DNA from: Veronia nyctiphanis
GTDB lineage: Bacteria > Pseudomonadota > Gammaproteobacteria > Enterobacterales > Vibrionaceae
Direction of reading: 5' to 3'
DNA length: 64,000 nucleotides
Assembly (NCBI RefSeq): GCF_004116385.1
Contig: NZ_PEIB01000011.1
Span: 1 to 64,000, forward strand
Under the pieces are notes generated by a model that did no database searches, was not told the DNA's origin, and saw only the letters and a list, made by a program, of their open reading frames with translations. A program made the translations under genes and the position numbers. Shown here piece after piece: positions 7,665 through 42,892 of this stretch; the stretch's first letter is position 1; the number at the start of each line of letters is the position of its first letter.

Positions 7665-8294
7665 GTGGACGTTGATATTTGGATTTATTACGCACTGGCA
7701 GTGCTCGTGTTGACGGCTTCTCCGGGCCCAAGTTCGTTACTGTGTATGACGGTATCTGTGACCTCGGGTTTAAAGTCAGGCATCTTTACCGCGTTGGGGA
7801 GTCTAACGGCAATAACGGCCATACTCTCACTGTCGTTCACAGGCTTGGGAGTTATCATTGCGTCTTCAGAGTGGGTATTTAATATCATTAAATGGGTGGG
7901 CGCAGGTTATCTTATATACCTTGGTGTGAAAGCTTTCTTGTCCAAACAAGACAGTTATGACGTCGACCCTGCTTCTGGCCCTCATCGACAACGAACAACG
8001 CAATCATTTGTTTCTGGCTTTATCGTCGGTGCAAGTAACCCCAAAGCTATCTTGTTTTTTACCGCCCTATTCCCTCAGTTTATCGATTCAGCGTCTCCAC
8101 TTTTACCGCAATACGTCGTTTTTGCCACGACGTTCATTACGCTGGAATTAAGCTGGTTGTTAACCTACTCCTTCCTTGGCTCCAAATCATCAAAATGGTT
8201 AATGGCAAAAGGGCGGGCGAGGGTGTTCAACAAACTGACGGGCACTGTGTTTGTCAGCGCAGGCGCCGTGCTCTCAACCGCCAGCAGAGGCTAA
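7665..8294 (+). CDS. LysE/RhtB family amino-acid exporter
   Basis: This 209-residue integral membrane protein has the LysE/RhtB signature. The first helix ends in A-S-P-G-P-S near residues 18-23. The G-x-x-x-G-x-F-T-A-L-G-S loop follows, then G-A-G-Y-L-I-Y-L-G-V-K-A, and G-A-S-N-P-K-A-I-L-F-F in the second half. About six membrane helices are visible. Such proteins export amino acids or their derivatives. It begins with GTG after CGGGAG. A second, frameshifted LysE-type gene lies at 53,370-53,968. Confidence 0.87.
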   Translation: MDVDIWIYYALAVLVLTASPGPSSLLCMTVSVTSGLKSGIFTALGSLTAITAILSLSFTGLGVIIASSEWVFNIIKWVGAGYLIYLGVKAFLSKQDSYDVDPASGPHRQRTTQSFVSGFIVGASNPKAILFFTALFPQFIDSASPLLPQYVVFATTFITLELSWLLTYSFLGSKSSKWLMAKGRARVFNKLTGTVFVSAGAVLSTASRG

Positions 8295-23969: not shown

Positions 23970-26306
23970 TTACCCTAAAGCAACTTGACTTGGCTGCTTA
24001 TCATTCACAGGGATAACTTGTGCTGGCACTGACTTATAATTTGGCGTACCCGCCAGTGAATCGCGGTCTATATTGCCTGTAAGCTCATTGATAGACGGAC
24101 CATAACGGTTAATCTCGCCGTTCTCGTCAAGGTAATCTAACCCACTTCCGTTCGGCAAAGAGATATTTCCCTTCGCCATCATAGGTGAAACACTGACACT
24201 GGCTTCAACCTCCCCAAAACGGGTTTTGACGACCACTCTGTCATCCGAACTAACCCCAAGCTCTTCCGCATCAGCGCGAGACATTCTCAGTACACCAATT
24301 TGACTTTTTCTGTCCCATCCTGGGTTACGAATAATCGTATTCGATGTTTCGGCACGTCTCTCTCCCGCAGCTAAGAAGAACGGGTATTTATCGTTTATCC
24401 TTGGCTCCATCTTGGCGAGAGGAGCAATTTTCTCCAACAGTTCAGGGAGGTGGAGATTGATTTTTTTGCCCTCAGTTCCCATGAGATTAAAACTCTCGGA
24501 ATAACTCCCTGCATCACAAAATTCGACAGCGGTATCTTTCGTCATCAAATCAGAAAAGAGTCGCTCAGCACCTTTAAGACCTGTATACCCAGCATTTGCC
24601 GCATACTCTTTCTGATTCATCCTGTAGACATGAGAAAATGCCCAGATCACTGCCGCTGTCTCACTACCTTTAGGGAGCGTTTGCCCAAAAGTTCGGTATA
24701 ACATAATGGGGAGAGAGTCCATTAAATGTTTCTCTCGGGCAATCATCGCCGCCAGTACCGCAGCAAAGACAGCTCGGTTGAGCTTTAACGCACGTCTTAA
24801 CCATTTATAGTGACGATCTTCAGAAAGGCTTCCTGCTTTCTCCACCAGCCTCGCAAAGATTTCAGCCTCTGACAGTGTCCCCTCAAGCGGAGAAAAAAGT
24901 GGCTGCCGAACATGAAAGGCGTTACGCGGGTACTCTACGTTAAAGAAGGTCGATTCCGCTTTTTCGAACTGGTTACTCGCGGGCAATACATAGTCAGCCT
25001 GACGTGCTGTTTCTGTCATCGCAACATCAACAACCACCGAGAATTCAAGCGCTCTCATTGCTTGTCGCATTCTCTCACTGTTAGCCAGAGAGTGAACCGG
25101 GTTTGAACTGACGATCAACATACTGCGAAATCTATCCGGATGATCAGTCAATATTTCATCAGGGATGACAACGGCTGGAATAGAGCCCATTACGATTCTT
25201 GAGTCCGTGACAGGAGATGTCGCCTTTTTCTTTCGCTTTCCCCCACCTTTACCTGAAACACTCCCACGGCTTCCCGCAGAGAGGCTGAAGAAAGGTATCG
25301 GCGTATTCATTCCGCCTTTTTTGGCAAAGTTACCTGTCAGTACAAACAACAGATTTTTAAGATAACTGTTGAGAGTTGAATTAACATTCTGTTGCAGCCC
25401 GAGATCTTCCATAGCCGCAAAACTGTTCGCTTTCGCAATGACCGACGCGACTTCGCGCAGTACTTGAGGGTCCACACCAGAGAATGTGGCGTATTCATCG
25501 ATGTTTAATGATTCAAAAAAGGGCCGAATGTCTTCAAGGCCGCGAGAATGGGATGCAAGCCAATCTTTAGCGATCAATTCTTGTTCAAAAAGTACCCCTA
25601 CCAACGCGAGTAAACACCAAGCATCGCGCCCCGGCTTAACTTGAAGATGATAATCAGCCATTGCAGCAGTCTCTGACCTTCGGGGGTCGAATGACAATCA
25701 GTTTCCGGTTTGGGTCCTTTTTCATCTCGGTGAGCAGAAGTCTCGAACGTGGAATGCCATGTGATTGCCATGGGTTTTTTCCGACAAAAAGTGCAACATC
25801 ACAGTGCTCAAAATCACCATGGATAAAGGTGCCAAACATTTTGCCGTTCACCCAGAACTCACCAGACTTTTCCTGTGCCAAAGCATTTGAGCGGTACTTC
25901 ACGCCCAACGTCTTCAAGAAACCTTGCGCGTAAGCGCCAGCAAGGTGATTACCTTGCCACCTCCGCCGTAATAGAAAATAGATTCCCCACCGAATTTTTT
26001 CTTCACTGCAAGGAACCGTTCCGTCACTTCTCGGATTGCAGTATCCCAGTCAACAGGCTCATAGGTACCATCGGGTTTCCTTCTCATTGGCGAGGTTAAT
26101 CTATCAGCCGTTGATTGATAATAACTCAGGCGTTTCGCCTTTTCACAGTAATAGCCTTGGGAAATAGGGTGCGCTTTGTCACCTCTCACACCAATGATCT
26201 CTCTGTTCTCGACAGGCCCAGTTTTTACTTCCAGACCACAATTCAAGCTACACAAAATACACGCTGTTTTTTTCCACTCATTCTGAGATTCAGTTTTGCA
26301 ATCCAT
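23970..26306 (-). pseudogene. molybdopterin-dependent oxidoreductase, two frameshifts
   Basis: Repaired, this is a ~775-residue bis-MGD oxidoreductase of the FdhF/BisC superfamily. The N-terminus has the [4Fe-4S] ligands C-I-L-C-S-L-N-C with a fourth Cys in Y-Y-C-E-K (about residue 54). The second frame (from about 25,960) carries Y-R-S-N-A-L-A-Q-E-K-S-G-E-F-W-V and G-K-N-P-W-Q-S-H-G. The third (from about 25,695) carries the MGD-binding C-terminal half, including S-S-N-P-V-H-S and R-Y-G-P-S-I-N. The breaks are one missing and one extra base. No TAT signal is seen, so it is probably cytoplasmic. Substrate unknown. Confidence 0.82.
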
Positions 26307-27681: not shown

Positions 27682-28213
27682 ATTTCGCCTCTTTCGTCAT
27701 AAAACACTGGCTAAACAGCCAAAATTCACACTAACATTGGCGTATAACGGTGAGTAGGCCTAAACAAACCCTTTGTGCGCTGAAAATATAGCTTTTTAGA
27801 TCGTATTCAAATCTCTGGTTATCGTGAACAAAGAGCAGGGCTGGCTTGGCGCTACTACATCCATATGCTCCCTCTTACTTTAAAATCCCTGACTTAATTG
27901 ATTTTTTTGGATCAAACGCTCATTGATAGCTCTCATAATAATTTTCTGCTTTGCTATCATCGAAATGGACTTTCACTATACATTACCCTCTTTAGTGAGA
28001 GATAGCTTCTGGCAAAGTAGTATCATTCAGGAGATTGCACCATGCCCCTGCATCAAGTCGTTAATATTCCCTCTTTACCCTATGCCCTATGTGATGCAAT
28101 TACACTCGTAAATTCCAAACAGTATAAGTATTTGACGAATCGTTGAGAGGGGGATGTTCCCATCAATATAACGACCCTCTCAATCGACACCTGAAAAATA
28201 TCCGAGAAGTTCA
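27682..28213. other. intergenic region upstream of diguanylate cyclase
   Basis: This is a divergent promoter region. The one clear structure is a 9-bp perfect inverted repeat, TTGAGAGGG (28,143-28,151) and CCCTCTCAA (28,175-28,183), ending 30 bases before the cyclase ATG. A 62-codon reading at 27,923-28,111 has no SD and is not called. Confidence 0.5.
28143..28183. promoter_or_regulatory. inverted repeat before the diguanylate cyclase gene
   Basis: Two 9-base arms pair perfectly across 23 bases, in what is probably the 5' untranslated region or an operator of the diguanylate cyclase gene. There is no downstream U-tract, so a regulatory or RNA-structural role is more likely than termination. 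Confidence 0.35.
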
Positions 28214-30046
28214 ATGCCGAAGAAAACAGCTTTAAGAATACTCTTATTATTTGTATATGCGTTACCTCTGATGAGCGTAATTAATGCCGCTCAGGCAAGC
28301 ACGGTTATTGATTTATCTCACTGGAAAAGCGGCGATTCGACCATTGATAAATTCCAATTTATTGAGGATCACACATATAAACTAGCGATTGATTCGATTG
28401 CAGAGTCCTCAGACTGGATATCACCCGAGTCCGGCGTGACCAATCGCGGGTTTTCAGATTATCCTTCTTGGATAACATTCGATTTGAACAATCCGACCGA
28501 CACCGACAAGAAAATTGTCGTTGAGTACGTCGACGCTTCTGCAGAAACCATCGATCTTTACTACCGATTAAAAGGGAGTAGAGAAGATTTCAACCATGAG
28601 CACTTTTCATACAACGCAGCATCTGAGGGCCGGAGCGTCTCATTTTATCGACCAGCCTTCTCAATTACGGTGCCTGCTAATTCAAATATTGAAGTGTTCT
28701 ACCGACTCTTTCAGGGGAATGTGTTTCCAATGCATCGTTTTGACACGATGCGAATTTGGGAAGAAAAGGCATTCTACCGCACAGGAAATATCGAACTATC
28801 GCTGTTGATGATCTTGCTGTGTACCGAGCTTTCAATGGGTTTAGCCACCTTAATCGCTTACTTCTCAACACGCGATAGATTATTTCTGTATTACACCGCC
28901 TTTGCGTTTTCAGCCGCGTCTCTCTTTGCATCCTTGAGCGGTATCTGGGGCTACTTTGTCATGACTGAGCATTACCAACTGTGCATGGTCGTTTTACAAA
29001 TCAATATCTGTCAAATCACAGCGATTTTGTTTGTCAGAAAGTTCCTCAATATCGCAGAGCATTTGCCTAAGGTGAATACGTTTTTGCTGCTTGTTGTTGC
29101 GATAGACGTTATCGGTGTGCTACTAAACCTATTTGGTAAACCTTATCTGTCTCGAATCATTATCGACTACACAGCGATTGGTTATTTCATTCTTATTCCC
29201 CTTGGGCTCTATGCGCATAAAAAACGTGTTCCCCACGCGTTATTGTTTTCATGTAGTTGGCTGATATTTATTGTCGGAATGGTTTTGGCCTCTCTTCGTT
29301 ACCGTGGTTACATAGCCAATACACCATTATCAGAGTGGCTGATTTACTTCGGTGGTTTTGTTGAAATCTTCCTTCTGACGACAGTGCTAGTGCTGCGCTT
29401 CCGACACATGCAACATGAGAAACTGGTGATTGAACGCGAACACCGTCAGCACCTTGTAAACGCAGCGCGTGTATTAGAAGAAAAAGTTAATGAACAAACT
29501 CAACAATTACGCATTGCCAAAACGCGTGCCGAAAGAGAAGCAAGAACCGACCCTCTCACTGGCCTGCCTAATAGGCGATCTTTCTTCGAAAACGCACAGG
29601 CATTTCTGTTGCGATCAAGGCGTAAGAATGATCCCTCGGTGTACTTACTGATGATCGATATCGACCATTTCAAAAGGATTAACGATACATACGGACACGC
29701 CGCTGGCGATGCAATATTGCATGACGTTGCGAAGATCTTAAAAGGCGTGGTGCGGTGTACCGATTTAATATCACGACTTGGCGGCGAAGAGTTCGCTATC
29801 GTCATGGAGGGGGTGACGGACTCTGAGGCACAAAAGCTCACTGAACGCTTACATTTCGCTATAGAAAACAATGAATTCACCCATAACCAGCAGGTAATGA
29901 GTGTAACCATCTCAATCGGTTCAGCGAGTTGGGATCAAAACCTGACACTCGATCAATTGATGAGGAAGGCAGATAACGCGCTTTATGACGCCAAAAGTCA
30001 GGGGCGTAATCAAATCGTTTATGCAAACCCGATTGCGCTGGCCTGA
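28214..30046 (+). CDS. 7TMR-DISM diguanylate cyclase (GGDEF)
   Basis: This 610-residue membrane receptor makes cyclic di-GMP from GTP. A signal peptide (about 1-29) is followed by a periplasmic 7TMR-DISMED2-like domain (about 40-170). Seven membrane helices (about 190-400), a coiled coil (about 410-440) and a GGDEF domain come next. The active-site motif is GGEEF (523-527), a functional variant, preceded by an intact inhibitory I-site RCTD (514-517), five residues before it. GAGAAG precedes the ATG. The frame is intact. The periplasmic ligand is unknown; family relatives bind carbohydrates or similar small molecules. Confidence 0.92.
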   Translation: MPKKTALRILLLFVYALPLMSVINAAQASTVIDLSHWKSGDSTIDKFQFIEDHTYKLAIDSIAESSDWISPESGVTNRGFSDYPSWITFDLNNPTDTDKKIVVEYVDASAETIDLYYRLKGSREDFNHEHFSYNAASEGRSVSFYRPAFSITVPANSNIEVFYRLFQGNVFPMHRFDTMRIWEEKAFYRTGNIELSLLMILLCTELSMGLATLIAYFSTRDRLFLYYTAFAFSAASLFASLSGIWGYFVMTEHYQLCMVVLQINICQITAILFVRKFLNIAEHLPKVNTFLLLVVAIDVIGVLLNLFGKPYLSRIIIDYTAIGYFILIPLGLYAHKKRVPHALLFSCSWLIFIVGMVLASLRYRGYIANTPLSEWLIYFGGFVEIFLLTTVLVLRFRHMQHEKLVIEREHRQHLVNAARVLEEKVNEQTQQLRIAKTRAEREARTDPLTGLPNRRSFFENAQAFLLRSRRKNDPSVYLLMIDIDHFKRINDTYGHAAGDAILHDVAKILKGVVRCTDLISRLGGEEFAIVMEGVTDSEAQKLTERLHFAIENNEFTHNQQVMSVTISIGSASWDQNLTLDQLMRKADNALYDAKSQGRNQIVYANPIALA

Positions 30047-30244
30047 TGGTAAAGATCTTACGGAACAAACCAACCCTAAAAAACACTCTATAAAGTGTGG
30101 ATAGAATAATCGCTCTAAGAGAAAGCCAAGAGCGAGATTCGTTATCTATACTAAAAACATCGCTATATCAGTCATTTGGTTATTCACCTAACAACACCGT
30201 CGATGTTTAGCGGACCAAGCTTACTTATAAGGGGCAGGTTAGAG

Positions 30245-30733
30245 ATGAAAAATGTAAAGCGATATCAGTACCTTGGTATTTTCCATGGTGCATTTACAGT
30301 TCTAATAGGGCTCATCGGCGGGATTTTTCTGACATTCTCAGTGATTGGTGAAATACAAATTTGGCCGCTCGCAACATGGCAAGTCGTCTTGCCCGGAGAT
30401 ACAGCCCTTTGGCGAAGCGCACACACAGGGCCAATTATTAATGGCGCATTGTGTATTGCGGTTATGCTGTGCTTGTCAATTCTCGCTCCAACAGACAGGC
30501 AGGCGCGTCATATCAGCTATGCCATGATACTCATGTGCTGGGGTAATACCTTATTTTACTTTTTCCGCATTGCCAGTGTTAACCGCGGACTAGCGTTAAA
30601 CACAGAAAGATTCGGTGAAGGGACATTCATTGACTATCTGGCATTCCTGCCCCCTTACCTCATCATTCCGGTCACTGTCTACGCGGTGTTATATCTGATG
30701 TTGATTGCCTACCAAAACTACCGCCTCAGTTAA
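30245..30733 (+). CDS. styrene-oxide-isomerase-like membrane protein
   Basis: This 162-residue protein with four predicted membrane helices matches my recollection of styrene oxide isomerase (StyC). Shared blocks are R-S-A-H-T-G-P-I-I-N-G (His60, Asn66), W-G-N-T-L-F-Y (Tyr105), N-R-G-L and F-G-E-G-T-F-I-D-Y-L-A-F-L-P-P-Y. In StyC, His58, Asn64, Asp95 and Tyr103 are important haem-site residues. Here the first, second and fourth are conserved, but the Asp position is Met97. The gene starts behind AAGGGGCAGG and stands alone, with no styrene pathway genes near. Its substrate is unknown. Confidence 0.65.
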   Translation: MKNVKRYQYLGIFHGAFTVLIGLIGGIFLTFSVIGEIQIWPLATWQVVLPGDTALWRSAHTGPIINGALCIAVMLCLSILAPTDRQARHISYAMILMCWGNTLFYFFRIASVNRGLALNTERFGEGTFIDYLAFLPPYLIIPVTVYAVLYLMLIAYQNYRLS

Positions 30734-30751
30734 TCCACGCGCACTGAAATG

Positions 30752-31606
30752 TTATTTTTCGTTGCCTGTTTTTGGTGGGGCGATGACGGCATGTAACCTT
30801 TCTCTCAGCGACGCATTGCTCGCTGAGACCTCTCGCCACATAGATTGCCATTCAGTAAACGTTGACGTCAGCGGGTTACCACTGTCTATCGGTGTTGTTA
30901 TGCCGTAATCCACTGTCTCAACCTCAGGCTCAAAAGTTCCGAAGAGACGATCCCAGATGATCAGTACTCCGCCATAGTTCTTATCGATGTATTGCGGATT
31001 ACGGCCATGATGAACACGGTGATGGCTCGGTGAATTAAATACCCAATCAAAAATGCCAAAACTTCTAATCCACTGTGTGTGGATAATAAACTGCAGTCCA
31101 AGGCTGAGAAGTACCGCAAAAATCACCCAGTTTGGTGGGAAGCCCACGATAACAAGCGGTAACCAAAACAGCCACATCCCCGCCACTGGGTACATAAGAC
31201 TTTGACGGAATGCAGTGCTGAAATTCATGCTTTCAGAACTATGATGCGTTGAATGTGCTGCCCAGAACCAGCGGATACGGTGACTTGCGCGATGGAACCA
31301 GTAGTAACAAAAGTCTTGTGCGAGAAGCAGGACCAGAAACATACTTACTGACATCTTGATATCAAATAGTCGCCAGTCAAACAGCCAAATGTACACGTTG
31401 ATAACCATCAAACCGAACAGGACTTCCGAGGCTTGATGCATGCCTGCAAGAATGAAGTTACACAACGTTTCTCTTGGCTGGTACGTCGCTGTCGCTGGCA
31501 GTTTTCCGGCTCTCACACCGAGTAGCCACTCAAGCACCATACAGGTGACAAACAGAGGGCCAAGTAACAGCAAAAGATAATCTGGGTGTTCAACAATAAA
31601 ATCCAT
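30752..31606 (-). CDS. sterol desaturase/fatty acid hydroxylase family protein
   Basis: This 284-residue integral membrane di-iron oxygenase has the histidine boxes in order: H-R-A-S-H, H-S-T-H-H and H-R-V-H-H, with additional His between. Hydrophobic segments sit at the N-terminus and centre. Members hydroxylate or desaturate sterols, carotenoids or fatty acids. The second ATG (31,606) is preferred because GAGGA lies 6 bases before it, whereas it abuts the ATG at 31,612. It follows the DUF2804 gene by 32 bases and is probably co-transcribed with it. Confidence 0.85.
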   Translation of the reverse strand: MDFIVEHPDYLLLLLGPLFVTCMVLEWLLGVRAGKLPATATYQPRETLCNFILAGMHQASEVLFGLMVINVYIWLFDWRLFDIKMSVSMFLVLLLAQDFCYYWFHRASHRIRWFWAAHSTHHSSESMNFSTAFRQSLMYPVAGMWLFWLPLVIVGFPPNWVIFAVLLSLGLQFIIHTQWIRSFGIFDWVFNSPSHHRVHHGRNPQYIDKNYGGVLIIWDRLFGTFEPEVETVDYGITTPIDSGNPLTSTFTEWQSMWREVSASNASLRERLHAVIAPPKTGNEK

Positions 31607-31638
31607 TTTCATTCCTCATATGCGACAACAACTTACTG

Positions 31639-32682
31639 TCACCAACGCGCGTAGTGATCTTCGGTCAGTCCTACCATGTCGTCCAGAACATACTTATTCC
31701 CATCACTGTCATGAATATAGCCGGAAAATACTCCAACAAACTGACGGAAATTACTGCGTAATAGCCATAAATTGAGCTTTTCTTTACGGAAGTTAGCTGG
31801 CTGAAAAGACAAGTCCAGTCGCCCATCAAAACTGTATATTCGCCAAGGTGACGATACATCTCCACGATCAAAATCGAACACGACCGGACCCAATAGGTGT
31901 CTTTCGCCATTAATCCAAAGCGCATTCTCGTTTAAGCCAGTTTCATTGACGCCGTTAGCAAGGTTAAAGCCCACTGTGCCAGTTTCCGTGCGCCCATTGA
32001 GCGACGCCCATCGCCAACTGGTATCTCGCCGCATATAGCCAGCAGAGAAGTCATAGTTTGCCAACGCGTTATCGAGACAGATGGGATTTCCATGCACAAT
32101 CATTTCACCTAAGACAGTGAGCGTGTTGTGCTTTTGCGTGTAGGTCCATCCGTTATAGCCCGTTTGGTTACACAGCGCTAAAGGCTTTGAGCCTTCCGGT
32201 CTCTGTAAACAAATTGAACATTTTATAAAAGGCAGGTTGATGTTGGCTGACCATTGTCCTCGGACAATAGAGAATTCCAAATACTTGCTTGTATTACCCA
32301 AGAATGCCCGCCCTTCTGAAGGAGACGGCTCAGTAGAATATCCCACGCCTTTTGGTTTCACCCATTCATACTTTTCATAACTATCCTTCTCTCGGTCATA
32401 AACGTAAGCGAAGCCACTTGCTAGATAGCGAATATCGGCAATCGCAAACCCAATTATGTAGTCAGGCGTCACGATAGAAACAAACTGAAACTGCTTATAG
32501 TGGAAATGTTTCGCCCAACGTGATGCAGGCTTGTCCATGACATTTTGGTATTGGAAGGCATCGAGACTGAGATGGCCGACTTCAGTGTCAAAATAGCCTA
32601 ACTTCGGCTTCCCATCACTATCCATAAGGCTGACTGGCGCGGGAAAAGGCACGCGAACGAATGACATATCGGCTTTCGACAT
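31639..32682 (-). CDS. DUF2804 family protein
   Basis: This 347-residue protein matches DUF2804, a family of lipocalin/CrtC-like beta-barrel proteins of unknown activity. Recognisable stretches are G-Y-F-D-T near residue 30, W-x-x-K-H-F-H-Y-K-Q-F-Q-F (about 56-68), G-F-A-I-A-D-I-R-Y, L-C-N-Q-T-G-Y-N-G-W-T-Y-T-Q-K and F-D-F-D-R-G-D. It is first in a probable two-gene unit with the desaturase-like gene, suggesting a shared lipid substrate. This is inference from position only. Confidence 0.8.
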   Translation of the reverse strand: MSKADMSFVRVPFPAPVSLMDSDGKPKLGYFDTEVGHLSLDAFQYQNVMDKPASRWAKHFHYKQFQFVSIVTPDYIIGFAIADIRYLASGFAYVYDREKDSYEKYEWVKPKGVGYSTEPSPSEGRAFLGNTSKYLEFSIVRGQWSANINLPFIKCSICLQRPEGSKPLALCNQTGYNGWTYTQKHNTLTVLGEMIVHGNPICLDNALANYDFSAGYMRRDTSWRWASLNGRTETGTVGFNLANGVNETGLNENALWINGERHLLGPVVFDFDRGDVSSPWRIYSFDGRLDLSFQPANFRKEKLNLWLLRSNFRQFVGVFSGYIHDSDGNKYVLDDMVGLTEDHYARW

Positions 32683-40350: not shown

Positions 40351-40437
40351 AAAAGAGGCCTTCCCAAAGGAAGGCCTCTTTTCGTCAGATCAGTCTCACT
40401 GATCAGGCATTAAGCGACGATATTATTTTGCTGGAAG
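40327..40437. repeat. direct repeat copy B, terminator plus fah 3' end
   Basis: This is the partner of 37,697-37,807. This copy is in its native context, because its last 15 bases are the final codons and stop of fah. Confidence 0.7.
40351..40382 (-). terminator. intrinsic terminator (copy B) downstream of fah
   Basis: AAAAGAGGCCTTCC-CAAA-GGAAGGCCTCTTTT is a perfect 14-bp stem 41 bases after the fah stop, with T-runs both ways. It differs from copy A by one base in the loop. Confidence 0.88.
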
Positions 40438-41736
40438 AACAGTGCCTTCAACAGAACCAAAACCAATACGGTTATAGCCTTCAGCCTCACACCATCCGTT
40501 CATGATGACTTTATCGCCATCTTCAAGGAACTTACGCTCTTCGCCATTAGCGAGAGTAATTGTTTCTTTTCCGCCACGAGACAGTTCTAGCAACGAACCT
40601 GCCTCTTCGTGCTCAGGACCAGACTGTGTGCCTGAACCCAACATATCACCCGGCTGGAAGTTACAACCATTAACAGTGTGGTGAGTAACCATCTGAGCCA
40701 CTGTCCAGTAGCTATGTCTGAAACTAGACTCAGACAGTTTGGCCGCTGGTTGATTATCAGCACGCATTTTTTCCGACTCCAGAAGTACTGACATCTGGAT
40801 ATCGAATGCACCTGCTTCACGGTTGTGAGCAGACTCTAGATATTCAAGTGGTTGCGGCTCTTCAGCATCACGATGCCACTGAGCACGGTACGGTGCCAGT
40901 GCTTCAGTAGTCACAATCCAAGGTGATACGGTCGATGCAAAATTCTTGGCAAGGAATGGGCCCAGTGGCTGATATTCCCACGCTTGCAGATCACGTGCTG
41001 ACCAGTCATTGAACAAACAGAAACCGAATACATGGCCTTCTGCATCTTCGATAGAAATCGTGTCGCCCAGTGCATTACCATTCCCTAGGTAAATACCTAG
41101 CTCAAGTTCATAATCAAGACGTTTACACGGACCAAAAGACGGCGCAGTCGCGTCAGGTGCTTTTGTCTGACCTTTTGGACGCGGGAATGATTGGCCTGAA
41201 ACACCAATTGACGATGAACGGCCATGGTAACCAATCGGAACCCACTTGTAGTTAGGCAACAACGGGTTATCAGGACGGAACAAACGACCTACAGCTGTCG
41301 CATGGTAGATAGAGGTGTAAAAGTCTGTGTAGTCACCAATGTGACACGGCACAGAGTACTCAACGTCATCTTGAGCCACTAATGCTGATTCAAGCACTGA
41401 CTGATGCTCAGAACCTTCACGTAGTGCCTTGGACACAGCCAGACGCAGTGCTGACCAGTAAGCATTACCAAGACCCATCAGAGTATTGAGTTTTTCTTCT
41501 GCACCCGCTTCAGCAGCATGCTGAGCGTCGCCAGAGAAAATGTTTGCTTCAGCAACAACTTTCAGGTCAACAACCTGATCACCAATGGCCACACCACCTC
41601 GGAAAGCATCTGCACTGTTTTTGCGGCGGAAGGCAGCAAATGGCAGATTTTGAATAGGGAAATCGGTGCCTGCAACGTTGGCGCTCGCGACCCAACTTTT
41701 CAGGTTTACATCATGGGTTTCGTTAATCAGAGACAT
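40423..41736 (-). CDS. fahA: fumarylacetoacetase
   Basis: This 437-residue enzyme is the last of tyrosine/homogentisate catabolism, hydrolysing fumarylacetoacetate to fumarate and acetoacetate. An N-terminal SH3-like domain leads to the catalytic FAH fold. D-F-Y-T-S-I-Y-H-A-T (Asp metal ligand and the catalytic His), L-D-Y-E-L-E-L-G (two metal-binding Glu), F-N-D-W-S-A-R-D and G-T-Q-S-G-P-E-H-E are all visible. Its frame is intact, with GAAGGAAGG before the ATG. It lies downstream of hpd but is separated from it by a terminator, so it may have its own promoter. Confidence 0.95.
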   Translation of the reverse strand: MSLINETHDVNLKSWVASANVAGTDFPIQNLPFAAFRRKNSADAFRGGVAIGDQVVDLKVVAEANIFSGDAQHAAEAGAEEKLNTLMGLGNAYWSALRLAVSKALREGSEHQSVLESALVAQDDVEYSVPCHIGDYTDFYTSIYHATAVGRLFRPDNPLLPNYKWVPIGYHGRSSSIGVSGQSFPRPKGQTKAPDATAPSFGPCKRLDYELELGIYLGNGNALGDTISIEDAEGHVFGFCLFNDWSARDLQAWEYQPLGPFLAKNFASTVSPWIVTTEALAPYRAQWHRDAEEPQPLEYLESAHNREAGAFDIQMSVLLESEKMRADNQPAAKLSESSFRHSYWTVAQMVTHHTVNGCNFQPGDMLGSGTQSGPEHEEAGSLLELSRGGKETITLANGEERKFLEDGDKVIMNGWCEAEGYNRIGFGSVEGTVLPAK

Positions 41737-41787
41737 GGTCCTTCCTTCTTGACCTAAATGAACGCTACATTGTTCTTACTAGAAGTG

Positions 41788-41817
41788 AAAAAGCAGCTCA
41801 AAAATAAGCTGCTTTTT
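41788..41817 (-). terminator. bidirectional intrinsic terminator between hpd and fah
   Basis: AAAAAGCAGCT and AGCTGCTTTTT form a perfect 11-bp stem (loop CAAAAATA), with the T-rich arm on either strand. On the minus strand it stands 22 bases after the hpd stop and 51 bases before the fah start. It would separate, or partly attenuate, their transcription. Confidence 0.8.
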
Positions 41818-41839
41818 AATTTTTTTGGCTTAATCGATG

Positions 41840-42892
41840 TTAAATCACACCGCGACGTTCTTGGTCGCGCTCAATTGATTCGAACAGTGCTTGGAAGTTA
41901 CCCTCACCGAAGCCACCATCATCAACACGTTGGATCATTTCGATGAAGATTGGGCCAAACAGGTTTTTCGAGAAAATCTGTAGCAAGTAACAATCTTCAG
42001 ATTGGCTATCCACTAAGATTTGGTGCTCACGGATCTTCTCACGGTCTTCTTTAACCCAAGGAACGCGGTCGAAAATCGTTTCGTAGTACTCAGGAATAAT
42101 ATCCAGCGTCGCGATAGTAGACTTGTCCAGCTTGTCCAAAGAACCGACAAGGTCGTCTGTAAGGAAAGCAAGGTGCTGAACGCCCGGGCCATTGTACTCG
42201 TTCAGATACTCATCGATTTGGTTATTGTTGTCGTCTTTACCTTCGTTGATTGGAATCGAGAAGGTACCGCAAGGAGATTTCAGTGCATAAGACAGCAGTG
42301 CAGTTTTCTGACCTTTGATGTCGAAGTAGCGAACTTCAGTGAAACCGAAGACATCTTTGTAGAAGTTAGCCCAAGTGTCCATCGTACCTTTGTAGACGTT
42401 GTTCGTCAGGTGGTCGATACGGATAAAGCCTTTATTCTCGACAACATTTTGGTCGTCTGCAGCCAAATCTTCAAAGTCAGATTTGTAGATATTGTTTTCT
42501 TCACCAAAGTTTTCGATGAAATAAATCAGGCTGTCGCCAATACCGTAAATGGCTGGGTAAGGTAAATCTTTGTGCGTTGAATCGGTTGCAGGTTTAGCAC
42601 CGCGGTCTACAGCAACTTCGAATGCTTTCTGTGCATTCTCAACACGCCAGCCCATTGAACAAATAGCTGGACCATGGCTACGTGCAAACTCAGCAGAAAA
42701 ACCATCGCGCTCATTGTTTAGTAGGAAATGGATGTCATTCTGGTTGTAGTAAACAATGTCTTTGCCTTTGAATTTCTTGAGCTTCGAGAAACCGAAATCA
42801 GAAAATACTTTATGCATGTAGTCAGCATCTGGTGAAGCATACTCTGTAAATTCAATACCAACCAGACCAAGTGGGTTATTTACTTCGCTCAT
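41840..42892 (-). CDS. hpd: 4-hydroxyphenylpyruvate dioxygenase
   Basis: This 350-residue iron(II) dioxygenase converts 4-hydroxyphenylpyruvate to homogentisate. The metal triad is visible: His in R-I-D-H-L-T-N-N-V (about residue 161), His in G-V-Q-H-L-A-F-L-T-D (about 241) and Glu in G-P-I-F-I-E-M-I-Q-R (about 321). The frame is intact and the length is standard. A weak TyrR-box-like TGTAAA-N6-TGGACA lies about 115 bp upstream (43,007-43,024). No homogentisate dioxygenase or maleylacetoacetate isomerase gene lies beside it. Confidence 0.95.
   Translation of the reverse strand: MSEVNNPLGLVGIEFTEYASPDADYMHKVFSDFGFSKLKKFKGKDIVYYNQNDIHFLLNNERDGFSAEFARSHGPAICSMGWRVENAQKAFEVAVDRGAKPATDSTHKDLPYPAIYGIGDSLIYFIENFGEENNIYKSDFEDLAADDQNVVENKGFIRIDHLTNNVYKGTMDTWANFYKDVFGFTEVRYFDIKGQKTALLSYALKSPCGTFSIPINEGKDDNNNQIDEYLNEYNGPGVQHLAFLTDDLVGSLDKLDKSTIATLDIIPEYYETIFDRVPWVKEDREKIREHQILVDSQSEDCYLLQIFSKNLFGPIFIEMIQRVDDGGFGEGNFQALFESIERDQERRGVI

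Follow-up and report, generated by a model that had tools for sequence, protein, structure and literature searches.

A gene of Veronia nyctiphanis encodes a membrane protein, P0001, that is genuinely homologous to styrene oxide isomerase (SOI, StyC) and a member of the SOI superfamily. It is not a StyC, since it scores below the family cut-off, lacks the family's Asp, lies outside the StyC clade and does not have a StyC gene context. P0001 falls in a lineage that is sister to StyC and lacks the Asp, and in which most genes adjoin a gene of the PF10118 family, a probable diiron oxygenase. The P0001 gene itself stands without such a neighbour in the 64,000-nucleotide stretch that we analysed (the window: positions 1 to 64,000 of contig NZ_PEIB01000011.1). 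To our knowledge SOI has been described from styrene breakdown only.

P0001 has the fold and most key residues of SOI

The gene and the codons that bear on its function, all on the + strand, are as follows.

30245-30733, +: P0001, SOI-like four-helix membrane protein of 162 residues (profile, PDB sequence and fold matches)
30422-30424, +: His60 codon, aligned with PtSOI H58, the axial haem ligand; invariant in the 40-row alignment
30440-30442, +: Asn66 codon, aligned with PtSOI N64; invariant in the 40-row alignment
30533-30535, +: Met97 codon, aligned with the position of PtSOI D95
30545-30547, +: Asn101 codon, aligned with PtSOI N99; not invariant, being Phe in one large clade
30557-30559, +: Tyr105 codon, aligned with PtSOI Y103, which hydrogen bonds to the substrate oxygen; invariant in the 40-row alignment
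30584-30586, +: Arg114 codon, aligned with RoSOI1 R111, proposed to lie near a haem propionate; invariant in the 40-row alignment

The 162 codons are translated with no internal stop. The frame is open further 5', as far as a TTG at 30176; the ATG at 30245 has a purine-rich stretch ahead of it and gives the N-terminus typical of the family. P0001 matches SOI chains in the PDB with E values of 6.6e-24 (30tw_A) and 2.7e-19 (8pnu_G), which excludes a likeness by chance, and its identity to the two sequences, over the aligned parts only, is 38% and 34%. A profile comparison with StyC, proposed in the sequence-only reading that had named P0001 StyC-like, found a homologue: residues 14-152 score 97.3 bits (E 8.3e-28) against the NCBIfam StyC model NF045734, yet this lies below the equivalog cut-off of 150. 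A Pfam search of P0001 gave no match.

An AlphaFold2 model, computed from a 40-row alignment (A7) of window and locus proteins, has a pLDDT of 95.1 and a pTM of 0.86. It contains four long helices (residues 2-34, 53-80, 84-110 and 128-161), in agreement with the four-helix topology read earlier from the sequence; a hydropathy scan alone gives just three clear regions. The likeness of this fold to StyC had been set beforehand as the point on which the assignment could fail, and the predicted fold is StyC-like. Of 492 Foldseek matches in the PDB to E 10, only SOI (8pnu_A, TM 0.86/0.90) has an E value of 0.001 or less, and with VIA-align the model superposes on 8pnu_A over 155 residues with a Z of 21.0 and an rmsd of 1.5 Å. 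The next-best VIA-align match, LTC4 synthase (MAPEG), has a Z of 10.4, a value that ordinary helical arrangements also reach.

A study of PtSOI (PMC11374702) describes ferric haem b bound through H58 at the trimer interface and an epoxide oxygen positioned by Y103 and N64; N99A and Y103A are inactive, N64A is impaired and D95A substantially impaired. For RoSOI1, PMC12502698 reports that H57A loses both haem and activity and that D94A, at the PtSOI D95 position, is active on indene oxide in whole cells; it also proposes R111 as the residue that holds a haem propionate. With PtSOI residues numbered by eye along the translated L019 sequence, the alignment bears out a constant offset of two, as the sequence-only reading had it, with H58, N64, D95 and Y103 falling on H60, N66, M97 and Y105. 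It adds N99, kept as N101, so that the key residues H58, N64, N99 and Y103 are all present, and R114, equivalent to RoSOI1 R111 and also to PtSOI R112. Compared with StyC/SOI (NF045734; 8pnu, 8pnv, 30tw), P0001 thus shares the fold, the length, the axial haem His and the equivalents of Asn64, Asn99, Tyr103 and Arg112; it differs in its place outside the StyC clade, in having no styAB in the window and in lacking Asp95, which, as had been read from the sequence, is Met97. Because RoSOI1 D94A is still active, Met97 need not kill P0001 as an enzyme; by analogy, Met at this place may weaken isomerase activity and does not exclude it.

P0001 belongs to a lineage without Asp95

As a lone query, P0001 yielded nothing of use from the genome contig and viral contig collections. 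A scan of the genome contig collection (84,980 species) with a three-row alignment gave 56 loci; since that alignment, from which the scan patterns were derived, held Met, Asp and Val at the Asp95 place, the set of relatives found is biased. Further loci came from searches at class level (7 of 369 genomes matching) and phylum level (4 of 398), counts that include the organism's own genome and weak false matches. Four annotated plasmid records were also added, in all of which the genes for StyA, a flavin reductase and SOI follow one another; in two of the four an OmpW-type gene stands between StyA and the reductase. Together these gave 79 profile matches, from which two copies of the window itself (L001, L006), two duplicates (L004 and L010, on the same contigs as L035 and L027) and two partial rows (L048_2143, L012) were dropped, leaving a tree of 73 proteins including P0001.

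P0001 had been a long, unplaced branch in an earlier 12-row tree. In the 73-protein tree, StyC forms a clade of 34 rows, all with Asp (support 100/100), and P0001 lies outside it. Its sister is a protein of Endozoicomonas arenosclerae (L023; support 100/99, 42% identity); the wider group that joins this pair to L024-L026 and to L007, L013 and L016 has a support of only 86/83. The deeper branching order and the direction of change are unsure because end branches are long, the composition of P0001 was flagged and the outgroup was chosen by hand.

The Asp95 place holds Met, Val, Ile, Ala, Thr, Cys or Phe in every one of the 38 proteins that, besides P0001, fall outside the StyC clade, and a single change on the tree suffices to separate Asp from not-Asp. 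The change from Asp to Met is therefore no private loss and tracks the lineage split. The lack of the Asp, taken at first as the telling feature of P0001, is real, but it says less of this protein in particular, being common to all 38 and tolerated in RoSOI1 D94A.

Other catalytic positions vary within the non-Asp lineage. The N99 place is Phe in 26 of 26 members of its largest clade, Asn is kept there in only 7 of 38, and outgroup members also lack Tyr103. Since N99A inactivates PtSOI, a large share of the non-Asp proteins may have a function other than isomerase. The nearest tree rows to P0001, L023 and the metagenome-assembled L024-L026, resemble it in having Met, Thr or Val for Asp and in keeping N99, Y103 and H58; they differ in that PF10118 is directly adjacent in all four and not at P0001. 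In L007, L013 and L016 the Asp is replaced by Ala, but N99, Y103 and H58 are retained.

Some members invite separate remark. A deeper branch (L008, L011, L014, L017 and L040 1375-1866) keeps the His, in an HxE motif, and lacks Tyr103 and Asn99; PF10118 adjoins four of these five, which are possibly haem proteins with another role. Among the Asp-type loci, a Rhodopirellula metagenome-assembled genome (L060) has a StyC almost identical to that of Marinobacter (L062), and L056 and L058 (Mycolicibacterium/Mycobacterium) each have styA/styB in the vicinity of two SOI genes of the Asp type. According to PMC13101518, Rhodococcus opacus 1CP likewise has more than one styC, the role of the second being unclear.

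The two lineages keep different gene company

Among the Asp members, styA/styB lie within 8 kb in 28 of 34 and PF10118 (“Metal_hydrol”) lies within 3 kb in 0 of 34; among the non-Asp members, PF10118 is within 3 kb in 31 of 38 and styA/styB accompany 0 of 38. The adjacency was not selected for, because loci were fetched by their SOI-like protein and not by PF10118. All 31 paired PF10118 genes are on the strand of the SOI-like gene, mostly directly upstream of it and with short or overlapping gaps; in the nearest relatives, PF10118 is upstream in L024, L025 and L026 and downstream, with an overlap of a few bases, in L023. L075, scored as having no PF10118, carries short PF10118 remnants directly upstream of its SOI-like gene, at about 7799-7964.

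Pairwise distances among the SOI-like proteins correlate with those among their PF10118 neighbours (r 0.838; 0 of 5000 permutations as high), a value that the permutation, which ignores kinship, does not separate from what shared species history and deep outgroup rows alone could give. It was computed on 23 of the 31 pairs, six near-duplicates and two PF10118 reading frames not in the cluster being left out. Counted in reverse, 30 PF10118 loci, taken singly from each genome with flanks of 1.5 kb, include just 4 with an SOI-like gene, so PF10118 is a wider family, most of which is without an SOI-like neighbour. No publication linking SOI-like proteins to PF10118 was among those listed in searches of the open-licence literature, a body that leaves most subscription journals outside; the titles and opening lines of abstracts listed there did not tie SOI to a diiron protein either, and for PF10118 itself a single paper, on a lanthipeptide, came up.

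Loci from the class and phylum searches were taken with 1.5 kb flanks; those of L007, L013 and L016 were extended, and PF10118 is absent from the extended stretches. An aldehyde dehydrogenase gene lies downstream on the same strand in L007 (50 bp) and L016 (594 bp), not in L013, and in L007 it is followed by a gene that reads like an acyl-CoA ligase. Such an arrangement is what an aldehyde-forming isomerase would be expected to show. Aldehyde dehydrogenase within 8 kb is rare among the non-Asp members (4 of 38).

Oxygenase genes of other kinds also occur at non-Asp loci. In L037, two PF02332 hydroxylase subunits and a 2Fe-2S/FAD/NAD reductase lie upstream of the PF10118/SOI-like pair, and genes of the same clusters are present in L027 and L038. 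Near the pairs of L044, L066 and L076 are flavin monooxygenases that belong to a single cluster, and a carotenoid-oxygenase-like (RPE65) gene is near the SOI-like gene in L050 (3129-4481, assigned by Pfam) and L075 (6386-7714, same cluster). L037, L038 and L076 are titled as Klebsiella pneumoniae metagenome-assembled genomes; their pairs resemble those of environmental Gammaproteobacteria and the titles are probably wrong.

The PF10118 neighbour resembles diiron oxygenases

Seven residues of the PF10118 protein (E66, E96, H99, E148, H180, E184 and H187 in L024) form an E, ExxH, E, HxxxExxH set that is invariant in a 21-row alignment and in 32 of 32 rows, the own-genome copy included. The order is that of the ligands of AzoC, an AurF-like N-oxygenase, listed in PMC6783550 as E102, E137, H140, E198, H225, E229 and H232. 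An AlphaFold model of the L024 protein (pLDDT 83.7) has as its top matches CmlI (Z 11.7) and AurF (Z 11.6), tied with ribonucleotide reductase R2 and R2-like oxidases; a Z near 11.7 may reflect a common helical arrangement, and the best Foldseek E value is 0.046, with none under 0.001. The PF10118 profile has no sequence match among PDB chains, which sets the family apart from the AurF/CmlI diiron N-oxygenases whose residue order it shares. The residue pattern is thus stronger evidence than the fold match, and the neighbour is a probable AurF-like, O2-using diiron oxygenase. The “hydrolase” of the family name is therefore doubtful.

P0001 is an accessory gene without a local partner

No styA, styB, styD-like aldehyde dehydrogenase or PF10118 was found by profile searches among the open reading frames of the window, which upholds the sequence-only reading that no styrene genes lie beside P0001. 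A search of the entire assembly, which is 95% complete, found no StyA, and the same query was positive in G190 (E 3.3e-186); PF02332 was not found in the assembly either, a search without positive control that carries little weight. One PF10118 gene is present on another contig (G000:C1:119235-119975); in locus L080 (6619-9084, G000 contig C1) it adjoins an FMO-like flavin monooxygenase directly. We rejected it as a dedicated partner of P0001 in view of that neighbour, its presence in the sister species, which lacks P0001, and its identity of at most about 30% (BLAST) to the paired PF10118 proteins; it could still serve P0001 in trans.

Comparison with the sister species (one same-genus genome searched) delimits a stretch that is missing there.

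27701-30751, strand not assigned: accessory two-gene stretch with a 7TMR-DISM/GGDEF protein (28214-30046) and P0001; absent at the syntenic place (L091)

The sister species has its FA_hydroxylase gene immediately before Peptidase_S66, and the window has the GGDEF gene and P0001 between these two. The FA_hydroxylase (30752-31612, - strand) and the DUF2804 gene (31639-32682, - strand) were also rejected as partners, P0001 being convergent to them and the pair occurring in genomes without P0001: both are in G001, G024, G065 and G069, and FA_hydroxylase alone is in G009, none with a P0001 match.

Among 99 other related genomes P0001 has one weak match (G063), and among 393 other genomes of the order two (G063, G1104), all with internal stops. 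Two further candidates were discarded, a weak match in G209 with internal stops and one in G593 (E 3.0e-4) whose reading frame is unlike the family. P0001 does not look foreign, its GC3 of 0.497 being close to the mean of 25 long window reading frames (0.473, sd 0.041). It is thus an accessory gene that either arrived without a partner, lost its partner or works alone.

Two other regions of the window are worth recording. At 23970-26306 (- strand), three overlapping reading frames in different frames (575, 87 and 130 aa) resemble fragments of a single molybdopterin oxidoreductase; the gene is probably disrupted, or else the assembly is at fault. About 10 kb from P0001, at 40423-42892 (- strand), two genes resemble fumarylacetoacetase and 4-hydroxyphenylpyruvate dioxygenase, suggestive of aromatic amino acid breakdown.

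Discussion

Our preferred reading, which we hold with even confidence, is that P0001 works like SOI, by haem Lewis-acid catalysis on an epoxide other than styrene oxide. Ferric haem b would be bound through His60 at a subunit interface, presumably that of a trimer, and as a Lewis acid would open the epoxide to an aldehyde or ketone in a Meinwald rearrangement, and Tyr105, Asn66 and Asn101 would keep the epoxide oxygen in place. In most of the non-Asp lineage the epoxide would be supplied by the neighbouring PF10118 protein, if that is indeed an oxygenase; in the genome of P0001 it would be made elsewhere or taken up. The place of P0001 in a sister lineage of StyC that lacks the Asp makes styrene oxide an improbable substrate. 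The earlier idea of an SOI-like haem protein is thus sustained in part, by the fold, by the His that would ligate the haem and by most of the catalytic residues, and a role outside styrene metabolism is in keeping with the lack of styAB.

This isomerase reading is favoured by the SOI fold (Z 21.0 against 10.4 for the next match) with equivalents of H58, N64, N99, Y103 and R112, by the aldehyde dehydrogenases downstream of L007 and L016 and by the hydroxylase and reductase genes of L037. Against it stand the impairment of PtSOI by D95A, the Phe at N99 in the 26-member clade and the absence of Tyr103 in outgroups. Aldehyde dehydrogenase is rare in the lineage (4 of 38), neither it nor any of the tested oxygenases accompanies P0001 in the window, and no further copy of P0001 was found in the relatives searched.

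We also entertain, as a possibility on the unlikely side, a history in which StyC is a specialised offshoot of an older two-gene module made up of a membrane haem-b SOI-like protein and the AurF-like diiron oxygenase PF10118. An alkene within a lipid, terpene or hydrocarbon would be converted to an epoxide by the oxygenase, and from this the haem protein would form a carbonyl compound; StyC would later have switched to the flavin enzyme StyAB and fixed Asp95, leaving P0001 as an orphaned member.

The chief rival of the isomerase reading, unlikely in our estimation, is that the non-Asp proteins, P0001 included, are haem-b membrane electron donors of the diiron PF10118 protein, StyC being a later recruit to Lewis-acid catalysis. 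Diiron oxygenases require electrons; 31 of the 38 non-Asp members, four of five outgroup members among them, have PF10118 no more than 3 kb away; and across 23 pairs the distances of the two proteins are correlated (r 0.838, a value reached in 0 of 5000 permutations), although the permutation test leaves shared species history in. The loss of N99, and in outgroups of Y103, while His58 stays would suit such a role. P0001 and its nearest relatives, however, retain N99 and Y103, two residues for which an electron carrier would have no use; no PF10118 lies beside P0001, and L007 and L016 adjoin an aldehyde dehydrogenase with no PF10118 in their extended stretches.

That P0001 is instead a recently acquired passenger gene, functionless in its host, seems to us rather improbable. 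The weak matches with internal stops in relatives (G063, G1104), the missing partner gene in the window and the absence of 27701-30751 from the sister species fit this account, but the reading frame is intact, all key residues except Asp95 are kept at about 42% identity to the nearest relative, and a GC3 of 0.497 is ordinary for the window and not foreign-looking. We regard as very improbable that P0001 is an ordinary StyC supplied with styrene oxide by a monooxygenase encoded elsewhere: homology, fold and the activity of RoSOI1 D94A on indene oxide, as given in PMC12502698, would allow it, whereas the score of 97.3 bits against a cut-off of 150, the position outside the 34-row all-Asp StyC clade (100/100) and the failure to find StyA in the assembly speak against it.

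A non-Asp lineage that keeps the haem site and is paired with a protein showing the diiron pattern points to a use of haem for rearranging epoxides beyond styrene breakdown, and it offers an idea of the chemistry of PF10118, whose family name reads “predicted metal-dependent hydrolase”. The members of the lineage are natural variants that test the need for Asp95 and Asn99; on the Asp, the PtSOI and RoSOI1 mutant studies differ (PMC11374702, PMC12502698).
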